From Bacillota bacterium (GTDB lineage: Bacteria > Armatimonadota > Hebobacteria > Hebobacterales > Hebobacteraceae), in NCBI GenBank assembly GCA_030668755.1, contig DAOVEW010000004.1:1-12795 (forward strand): DNA of 12,795 nt, written 5' to 3'. The position numbers and the translations under genes were made by a program. The notes under the pieces are model-generated. The model was given only the letters and a program-made list of their open reading frames with translations. It was not told the DNA's origin and searched no databases. Below, one piece after another: positions 1,174-6,329 of the stretch (the stretch's first letter is position 1; every line of letters begins with the position of its first letter).

Positions 1174-1324
1174 GACCGGCCTCCGCGTGCGAGGCCCGCA
1201 TATAGGACGGGGCTCCACTCATCCCCGCCGGGCGGCGGCGCCGCCGGTCCTTGTCGGGCGTGAGTGAAACCGTTGCGCTGGGAGCATATCGCTCCTTCCG
1301 ACCCCACATGCCGTCGGTGCACGC
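1174..1324. other. Probable left boundary zone of the integrative element
   Basis: This 151-bp gap holds a 14-bp perfect GC palindrome (1233-1246), a GGAGC-ATATC-GCTCC hairpin (1281-1295) and the 9-mer GGCGGCGGC (1231-1239) that is also present in tRNA-Cys. A 23-codon frame opens with GTG at 1260 (MSETVALGAY...) and ends at TGA 1329-1331, overlapping the ATG of the next gene as ATGCTGA. It could be a leader peptide or the remnant of a longer N-terminus. No good promoter is seen. Confidence 0.4.
1231..1239. repeat. Candidate left attachment core (GGCGGCGGC)
   Basis: This 9-mer matches 6182-6190 in the acceptor arm of tRNA-Cys in the same orientation. It is low-complexity GC sequence and could match by chance. 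It is listed because joining the two copies would close the recombinase frame with TGA at 1265-1267. Confidence 0.2.
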
Positions 1325-4497: not shown

Positions 4498-6329
4498 GCG
4501 ATCTCCATCCGCTACTGTCAAAGCTGATCGGAGAAGTGTACGAGGGGGCCGCGCCAGGTATTGCTCCAGGTGCCCTTGCTTACGTCCGGGTGTCGACCGA
4601 CATGCAGGAAGACCGCGGGCTATCGATTCCCGCCCAACTCAAGGCCATCGAAGCATATGCTTCTGAGCGAGGCATCCAGATACTGGAGACCTTCACGGAG
4701 GCGGCGTCGAGCTTCCAGGATGAGTCGAAGCGGGTCGAATTCAGGCGTATGCTTGGGATGGCGAAGTCAGATGCCCGCGTGACCGTGATACTCGTCCACG
4801 AGTCGAGCCGCTTCTGCCGTGACCCATGGCGGACGCCTCAGATCATCGGAGAGCTTCAGAACGATGGTGTTCGCGTCGTATCTGTGACCGAGCCGGAGTA
4901 CGATGTGAACACCGTAATGGGCATGTGGATGCAGAAGGTCACAGAGGCGAAGAACGCCTCCTACTCGATGGAGGTGGCGTTCCACACGCGCAAGGGAATG
5001 CGACAGAACGCCAGTGTCCGCGATCCCGAAACCGGCTGGTGCTACAAGAATGGCGGCAAGCCGCCGTGGGGCTACCGGACCGTTCGGATCGAACGTACTG
5101 ACGTCCGGGGTCGCCCGCGCTACAAGGCAGTCTGGGAACTGGACACGACCGAGGTCGCCGGTCGGCCGGTGTGGGAGTGGACGAGGGAAGTGCTGATCCA
5201 GGCGGCTGAGGGGGCCTCGTTGGATACGTTGCGGGACCTGCTGAATGAAGCGGGAGTCACCACAGCGAGAGGAGGCTACTGGAGCACAAGTACGATTCAC
5301 TCGCTCCTCGAACCTCACATGCTGCTGCAGTATGCGGGATACGGCACGTGGAACGTGCGCAAGAAGCGACGCCAGAGGTGGAACCGCCCCGAGGACTGGG
5401 AGGTCGTGCCGAAGGCCCATCCTCCGATCATCACGGAGGAGGAATCGAGGACGCTACTCCGAGTCCGAGACCAAGCTCGGCAGCGACACGCTAACCCCTC
5501 CACTCGTATGTCCGGCGTCCGCTCGTCCGGCAGCAGATTCGTCCTTTCGGGCGGTCCCTTCCGGTGCGCGCGGTGCGGGTCAAATATGGTAGGTCACACG
5601 AACCGGGGTCGTGACGGCTACATCTGTGGCGCAGCCAAGTACCGGCGCGGCCTGGGTTGTGGGTCCAGCGTGTTCGTCGAGAAGCACCTGGTTGAGGACG
5701 CTCTATGGGACACGATCAGAGTGCTTGCGGCGACGGCAGACGGCGAGGGGCGCGAGGAGCTGGTCTCAGACGTGAACGAGGAGCTCCAGGGGCAGTGGGA
5801 GGAGGGAGGAGGCAGTAGCGCTGCCGCGGCGCGAAGCCGTCTTGAGAAGATAGACGCGAAGATCGGCAACCTCCGGACGGCGCTCGAAGAGGGGGTCCGC
5901 GACGTTGCCTGGGTCAACGGACGCCTTCAAGCGCTGGCGTCGGAGAGGGCAGGGATATTGGCAGAGCGCGGTGGTCGAGTGGGGCCGACTGAGCCGCCGA
6001 CCGTGGACGGTGAAGCGCTGGTCACATATCTGTCTGACGTGAGCCGCGCTCTTCCCCACGCAACCAATCAGGAGAAGCGGTCGGTGGCCGCATACCTGGT
6101 CGACGGGATGACGCTCGACCCCGACGCACGTCAGATCGAGATCAGGGTAAAGCTGCCGGCTAATGCATTACAACGTGTGGAGGCGGCGGCCGGAGTCGAA
6201 CCGGCGAATAAAGGTTTTGCAGACCTCTGCCTTACCACTTGGCTACGCCGCCACAAACAGAGAGTGGAGCGGAAAACGGGAATCGAACCCGCGACCCACA
6301 GCTTGGGAAGCTGTTGCTCTACCAACTGA
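4494..6329 (+). CDS. Large serine recombinase (integrase), frame running through tRNA genes
   Basis: A 611-codon frame. Residues 28-165 are the resolvase catalytic domain, with the nucleophile Ser34 in YVRVSTDMQ and catalytic-type arginines in ESSRFCRDPWR. The Recombinase domain follows (GGKPPWGYR near 190). A zinc ribbon uses Cys358, Cys361, Cys378 and Cys389. A charged coiled-coil-prone stretch comes after about 440. Such enzymes join attP to attB without host factors and usually need a directionality factor for excision. Codons after about residue 562 read tRNA-Cys and tRNA-Gly antisense (VEPANKGFADLC, GIEPATHSLGSC), so they are not native sequence. The real protein probably ended near 560-575 in the free element. 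The gene is coupled to the ribbon-helix-helix gene and ends at the tRNA target. Confidence 0.9.
   Translation: MSDLHPLLSKLIGEVYEGAAPGIAPGALAYVRVSTDMQEDRGLSIPAQLKAIEAYASERGIQILETFTEAASSFQDESKRVEFRRMLGMAKSDARVTVILVHESSRFCRDPWRTPQIIGELQNDGVRVVSVTEPEYDVNTVMGMWMQKVTEAKNASYSMEVAFHTRKGMRQNASVRDPETGWCYKNGGKPPWGYRTVRIERTDVRGRPRYKAVWELDTTEVAGRPVWEWTREVLIQAAEGASLDTLRDLLNEAGVTTARGGYWSTSTIHSLLEPHMLLQYAGYGTWNVRKKRRQRWNRPEDWEVVPKAHPPIITEEESRTLLRVRDQARQRHANPSTRMSGVRSSGSRFVLSGGPFRCARCGSNMVGHTNRGRDGYICGAAKYRRGLGCGSSVFVEKHLVEDALWDTIRVLAATADGEGREELVSDVNEELQGQWEEGGGSSAAAARSRLEKIDAKIGNLRTALEEGVRDVAWVNGRLQALASERAGILAERGGRVGPTEPPTVDGEALVTYLSDVSRALPHATNQEKRSVAAYLVDGMTLDPDARQIEIRVKLPANALQRVEAAAGVEPANKGFADLCLTTWLRRHKQRVERKTGIEPATHSLGSCCSTN
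6161..6170. repeat. TAATGCATTA palindrome beside tRNA-Cys
   Basis: A perfect 10-bp AT-rich palindrome 7 bp from the tRNA-Cys CCA end, inside the last native codons of the recombinase. It could be part of the recombinase-binding attachment site or be chance. Confidence 0.3.
6178..6252 (-). tRNA. tRNA-Cys (anticodon GCA)
   Basis: All four stems form. The acceptor GGCGGCG pairs with CGCCGCC, the D stem is GCC/GGC, the anticodon stem GAGGU/ACCUU presents GCA, and the T stem GCCGG/CCGGC encloses UUCGACU. Discriminator U is the tRNA-Cys identity base, and CCA is encoded (TGG at 6178-6180). It lies 12 bp after tRNA-Gly and is probably co-transcribed. No hairpin with a T-run follows its 3' end; the recombinase gene does. 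This fits loss of the native terminator by insertion. Confidence 0.97.
6182..6190. repeat. Candidate right attachment core in the tRNA-Cys acceptor arm
   Basis: GGCGGCGGC here matches 1231-1239. It covers the 3' strand of the acceptor stem, where elements often recombine while keeping the tRNA intact. The match is short and GC-rich. Confidence 0.2.

Follow-up and report, generated by a model that had tools for sequence, protein, structure and literature searches.

The 12,795-bp window studied here is an entire contig (C329) of a host genome that is 55% complete and distributed over 411 contigs, the host being taken as an uncultured member of Armatimonadota. The window probably contains one end, on the integrase side, of a cryptic integrative element that has entered a tRNA-Cys gene at its 3' end. 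The element appears to be truncated on its left or only partly visible, and keeps an intact tRNA-Cys-specific module composed of a ribbon-helix-helix (RHH) protein and a large serine recombinase. This recombinase, whose relatives are specialised for tRNA 3' ends, would have carried out recombination between the tRNA gene and an attP site that overlaps its own 3' end. The crossover lies most likely at the acceptor/T-stem boundary and, because of this position, the element would supply the last ~11 nt of the tRNA, which stays intact. The accompanying replication protein, from a Prim-Pol/PriCT/DUF3987 family, has lost its Prim-Pol domain, most likely through a deletion of the left end in this copy, and the copy is most likely unable to prime its own replication or to excise precisely.

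Gene content of the window

The ORFs of the replication protein, the HGGxSTG protein, the RHH protein and the recombinase all lie on the + strand (Table 1). A previous reading made from the nucleotide sequence (the sequence-only reading) had described this compact one-stranded order, with repeats after the replication gene, and the ORFs and domains that we found agree with it. The absence of phage and transfer genes, which the same reading had pointed out, also held in the five ORFs that we scanned against Pfam and PHROGs (E 0.1): no phage structural, packaging or conjugation family was matched in them, although the element may extend beyond the contig. The HGGxSTG protein matched the HGG_STG model with 59.6 bits (cut-off 29) over residues 60-104, and the small cysteine-rich ORF had zero matches in Pfam, PHROGs and NCBIfam. 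No further copies of the 74-nt repeat were found elsewhere in the host genome. Besides the interspersed repeat at its left end, the window contains a second one at 6403-6578, with matches on 8 other contigs; the two are mutually unrelated, their similarity being no better than chance.

Table 1 Features of the window, with the basis of each assignment.
Feature	Position	Strand	Basis
Interspersed repeat of the host genome	154-363		Matched, in full or in part, on 12 further contigs of this genome
Methyltransferase gene	373-1173	+	Methyltransf_25
Replication protein, PriCT_1 at residues 19-79, winged-helix-like C-terminus	1325-2923	+	PriCT_1 match
Inverted array of ACGAA/TTCGT units, spanning the stop codon of the replication gene	2897-2967		Arms, fold, conservation in G007
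Putative small cysteine-rich ORF, gene status weakly supported	3108-3431	+	No family
Two 74-nt direct repeats	3596-3669, 3704-3777	+	80% identity, 108 nt apart
HGGxSTG domain protein	3825-4298	+	NF041373
Ribbon-helix-helix protein, 50 aa	4345-4497	+	RHH matches below Pfam cut-offs
Large serine recombinase	4494-6329	+	Resolvase, Recombinase, Zn_ribbon_recom; phrog_95; tree
Predicted att core at tRNA 3' end	6178-6189		Analogy with the dyad centre of L117, L119 and L118
tRNA-Cys (GCA), intact, integration target	6178-6252	-	tRNA calling and Rfam
tRNA-Gly (CCC), neighbour of the target	6265-6340	-	tRNA calling and Rfam

A serine recombinase at the end of tRNA-Cys

The recombinase is a large serine recombinase by domain test, as Resolvase, Recombinase and Zn_ribbon_recom follow one another along the protein, all three above Pfam cut-offs, and its PHROGs match was an integrase family (phrog_95). 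We rejected an assignment to the SCC cassette recombinase CcrB, since the NCBIfam CcrB model scored 57.8 bits for a cut-off of 900. Residues ~1-559 are element-like; from there the ORF continues antisense through the tRNA-Cys gene and most of the tRNA-Gly gene, with no stop codon before the tRNA. A stop inside or beyond a tail-to-tail tRNA, the mark of recombinases targeting tRNA 3' ends, is thus found in the window.

Integration at tRNA-Cys, already proposed by the sequence-only reading, was supported by related genomes. A search with the tRNA region gave matches in 61 of 61 genomes, and we examined the eleven relatives' loci returned (L011-L021). The tRNA-Cys gene lies beside tRNA-Gly in ten of them, L014 having the Gly gene only. 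In nine of these ten pairs, the ~1.5 kb to the left and right is free of relatives of the window recombinase, though elements of other kinds may be present there. Locus L020, in a genome (G010) from another family of the class, carries a 5'-truncated copy at the same tRNA-Cys place, 54% identical over the C-terminal part (residues 291-559).

A protein search, in which 7,994 candidates were scored and the best 120 listed, added to this picture. The 13 nearest listed recombinases are 59-89% identical to that of the window, and the next listed one 51%. Twelve of the 13 end in an antisense tRNA-Cys peptide, as recognised by pattern, and six run on into tRNA-Gly. The thirteenth (P0123, 68% identical) diverges immediately past the codons that cover the tRNA end's first ~11 nt, an ending that resembles what the free attP form would give. 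The other 107 listed recombinases comprise 63 with a tRNA-Met-type ending and 44 without it; among the latter, some are cut short and some diverge after the core. In a tree of 53 recombinases, the window sequence grouped with the G010 remnant (support 100/99), both nested in a 22-row set (98/97) comprising 12 sequences at tRNA-Met, two at tRNA-Cys, two at tRNA-Glu (one contig twice) and six without a called tRNA. Judging from these endings, the subfamily is specific for tRNA-Cys. The right end of the element is solid.

The stop codon of the RHH gene overlaps the recombinase start by 4 nt, and the same ATGA overlap occurs in L070, L072 and L080. RHH homologs are found just upstream of a related recombinase at six other places (G010 C65, G200, G018, G144, G179 and L109), while the same position is occupied by a small helix-turn-helix-like ORF (by inspection) in L077 and L079 and by an S24-peptidase protein in L117-L119. 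This overlap and recurrent neighbourhood suggest that the RHH protein is likely a regulator of the recombinase or a directionality factor that sets the direction of its reaction.

The left side of the element

Base 1 of the window is the start of the contig, and the left side is therefore cut off. The boundary that the sequence-only reading had drawn near 1231 was not recovered by local alignment, core search or dyad scoring. The best local alignment of the tRNA-Cys 3' end within 1-1330 scored 12 (shuffle mean 10.9, maximum 16), position 1230 shares 9 of 12 core bases, searches with the 12-nt core allowing up to 3 mismatches gave nothing beyond chance, and no attL stands out in dyad scoring of positions 1-5899. 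The test for a complete autonomous integrative element thus yielded the right end but not both att ends. The left boundary is left of ~1383 or off the contig, and the left flank at the repeat 154-363 is probably chromosome. No replication or recombinase gene was found beside methyltransferase relatives in seven loci searched with the window's proteins and, in a flank-synteny test for an empty site, relatives of the methyltransferase and of Memo shared no locus with the other window genes (12 loci and genome searches).

One site deserves mention, an 11/12 core match at 4147. It lies inside the HGGxSTG ORF, just past the domain, has no mirrored arm and is not among the top dyad scores, and we rejected it. 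This is a judgement, given that near-matches to the core are common in the genome (35 forward and 52 reverse; the control gave 36 and 36), whereas the exact 11-mer is rare (1 in 962,674 positions, loci L070-L099). The match counts against our preferred explanation, even without the mirrored arm. So do two other points: attL may just lie past the end of the contig, and the start of the replication gene could be misassembled.

The window could also represent the right side of a prophage or larger element that continues past the contig start, with the methyltransferase as cargo and attL off the contig. We give this reading a modest chance of being correct. The contig does begin at base 1 with no attL seen, a DNA methylase also occurs on the contig of the G007 replication protein homolog, other homologs of this protein are found in phage-like contigs (L081, with a portal-like ORF by inspection) and in five IMG/VR contigs, and P0123 is encoded on a 63.5-kb contig. 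However, the host interspersed repeat suggests that the chromosome is reached at 154-363, the window has no phage structural gene, and no relative turned up in IMG/VR when it was scanned with the window recombinase or P0123. A wider IMG/VR scan with alignment A1 listed 80 loci, two of them reaching 34% identity. As for the satellite or integrative plasmid borrowing the machinery of another element that had been envisaged from the sequence, we found no feature of helper dependence or mobilisation, and the element may be a larger one that runs off the contig on the left.

A replication protein without Prim-Pol

The domain search gave no Prim-Pol match in the window replication protein, and tblastn with the Prim-Pol part of the G007 homolog found nothing better than E 1.5 in the window. 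This homolog (713 aa) has Prim-Pol (3e-48) and PriCT_1. Homology to it begins inside the window gene and falls in two segments; the first is 1383-1554, and the second, 1670-2970, runs beyond the stop codon and across the inverted array before the similarity stops. The window protein itself begins just before PriCT_1. A DUF3987-type helicase region was assigned by homology, as the homologs match DUF3987. The ORF has no frameshift or internal stop, a further point against our preferred explanation. Other members of the family possess NrS-1-like, Prim-Pol or CHC2/Toprim parts, or no priming domain. Among the best 119 of 7,974 homologs, 62 align from before residue 60, and 57 of these have at least 130 extra N-terminal residues, i.e., room for a Prim-Pol; one has 119 extra residues and four start near PriCT, as in the window. 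With Prim-Pol missing and no attL found, the gene set does not bear out the earlier claim that it is enough for the element to integrate, replicate and control itself. The missing Prim-Pol need not mean decay, because of the four listed homologs that start near PriCT and of locus L084, where DUF3987 proteins without any priming domain lie beside an integrase.

These Prim-Pol-free relatives would fit a minimal element that is complete at ~5 kb and bounded near 1231 and 6190, with a replication protein relying on host priming, and compact elements with repeats at both ends do exist in the recombinase set (4.7 kb for L117 and L119 and 5.8 kb for L118). Yet no att copy lies near 1231 and the PriCT-first architecture is rare (4/62 listed homologs), so that we consider this reading improbable. 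An assembly or binning artefact, the true element having a full gene, might be expected in so fragmentary a genome, but an in-frame start codon lies just upstream of PriCT_1 and the base composition has no break at 1300-1400, which makes it highly improbable.

The inverted array at the stop codon has 27-nt arms that are 89% complementary. Its folding energy was matched by 0 of 200 shuffles (DNA fold z -4.98), and six ACGAA/TTCGT units are packed in 85 bp, with at most two elsewhere in the window. The array is conserved in G007, and hairpins with z < -2.5 occur at the stop of the replication gene in 5 of 14 homologs (L081 and L082 being near-identical) versus 3 of 65 other ORF ends. It may be an origin or a binding site, or perhaps a terminator. 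In L083 and L085, the 3' ends of the replication genes show, by eye, inverted arrays of ACGACC-type units (z -0.4 and -4.3, respectively); compared with the window motifs, it looks as if array and protein had changed together. The full-length replication gene of G007 directly precedes a recombinase of another branch, with 25% identity (L029 14139-18524), indicating that replication and integration modules have been exchanged.

Att geometry and the predicted crossover

In 18 of 80 genome loci, the recombinase gene stops within or past a tail-to-tail tRNA, with tRNA-Met (8), Leu (4), Glu (3), Gly (2) and Thr (1) as targets. The remaining loci include three that run off the contig, L121, which ends 1 nt from a tRNA, and others with none; those without overlap are mostly Clostridia sequences of 24-29% identity. 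Re-reading ten loci without a called tRNA revealed a tRNA-Met sequence in L110, the same up to a masked stretch in L113, and a conserved core followed by divergence in L102, L112 and L123. The habit of stopping in a tRNA is not confined to one branch, since L133 and L149 lie across the tree root. Several other arrangements were observed. L112 and L122 are related recombinases of one MAG (bin.10); L122 lies at an intact tRNA-Glu, and L112 ends in the core of that tRNA-Glu, after which the sequence departs from it, a pattern like that of a tandem or free form. L022 (G000 contig C18, 1-3615) has two tandem recombinases, 36-43% identical to that of the window, on a short contig without tRNA, and a distant serine recombinase (L086 13408-15318) overlaps a tmRNA gene with its 3' end.

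Three loci with compact elements (L117 4858-9614, L119 433-5157 and L118 3862-9659) allowed us to locate both ends. In L117 and L119, the 3' end of tRNA-Gly recurs exactly, over 21 and 20 bp, at a distance of 4.7 kb; in L118, 12 bp of the tRNA-Leu end recur 5.8 kb away. The two element halves of each of the three mirror one another around a point lying 10.5 nt inside the tRNA end; random positions reach such mirrored 7-bp runs in 0.1-0.45% of 2,000 trials. By tRNA numbering, we take this point to be the acceptor/T-stem boundary. The analogous crossover in the window is predicted near 6188/6189. The generality of this geometry is limited because most other loci searched showed no repeat. A 12-bp candidate attL in G009 (L093) was rejected, its mirrored run being only 3 bp.

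When the circles were read through computationally, the recombinases of L117, L119 and L118 each acquired a different, longer tail. One may imagine a built-in state switch, in which the last integrase codons double as the tRNA acceptor end and the integrase differs between its integrated and free states, an arrangement carried through target changes among tRNA-Met, Glu, Leu, Gly and Cys. When integrated, the recombinase would take its stop codon and C-terminal tail from the host tRNA; in the free circle, it would take a different, longer tail from the opposite end of the element. We offer this as a speculation that is rather unlikely to be right.

Comparison with known systems

Some of the closest systems come from our own searches. 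The Clostridia elements at tRNA-Gly (L117, L119) and tRNA-Leu (L118) share with the window a related recombinase overlapping a tail-to-tail tRNA, a regulator gene just upstream of it and a replication-type gene. They differ in that both ends are visible, the regulator is of the S24-peptidase type instead of RHH, and the replication proteins are of Rep_trans (weak) or REP_ORF2-G2P type. In Armatimonadota, the G144 element (L080/L101) has the same gene order: a replication protein homolog (64%), then an RHH protein and recombinase (43-45%), the stop codon of the recombinase falling within the tRNA; unlike the window, it targets tRNA-Met and has an NrS-1-like priming part and a type I restriction gene upstream. 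Upstream of their replication gene, some elements with tRNA-targeting recombinases carry a cassette of two genes (L101 152-2639, L109 678-2928 and L111 1379-3500; second gene only in L103 2571-3623). Its members are related; those tested had no Pfam match, and PADLOC gave one weak match.

Cryptic primase elements in tRNA genes (PMC5862659) and serine recombinases stopping beyond the island in ssrA (PMC3146451) are already in print. The former paper treats PrimPol-PV1 families. Of the integrated elements with AEP primases that it describes, 14 of 25 mapped ones lie in tRNA genes, and a cryptic class iii has no phage or conjugation genes. The window resembles this class in its integrase, primase-helicase-type replication protein and tRNA insertion; no phage or conjugation gene was seen in the ORFs scanned, but the element may extend further. 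Unlike it, the replication protein has no Prim-Pol, which places it outside the AEP definition, and flanking direct repeats were not found in the visible window sequence, cut on the left at base 1.

According to PMC3146451, the Dehalococcoides recombinase DsiB always overlaps its own att site and finds its stop codon only outside the island, inside ssrA. The window recombinase likewise overlaps att at its 3' end and reads into its target RNA gene without meeting a stop. In contrast with the DsiB islands described there, its target is tRNA-Cys instead of ssrA, no 20-bp far-end repeat was found, and the small second recombinase, ParB and Mom homolog were not seen among the window ORFs. What the window contributes beyond these systems is a lineage specific for tRNA-Cys and a truncated replication gene. 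The tRNA-Cys-specific subfamily comes with a predicted crossover, and its relatives with mapped att geometry could serve as a reference. The stop-codon-in-target arrangement, left unclear in the 2011 DsiB paper (PMC3146451), is now seen in many recombinases at several tRNAs, and can be tested by comparing the integrase from the integrated and circular forms.
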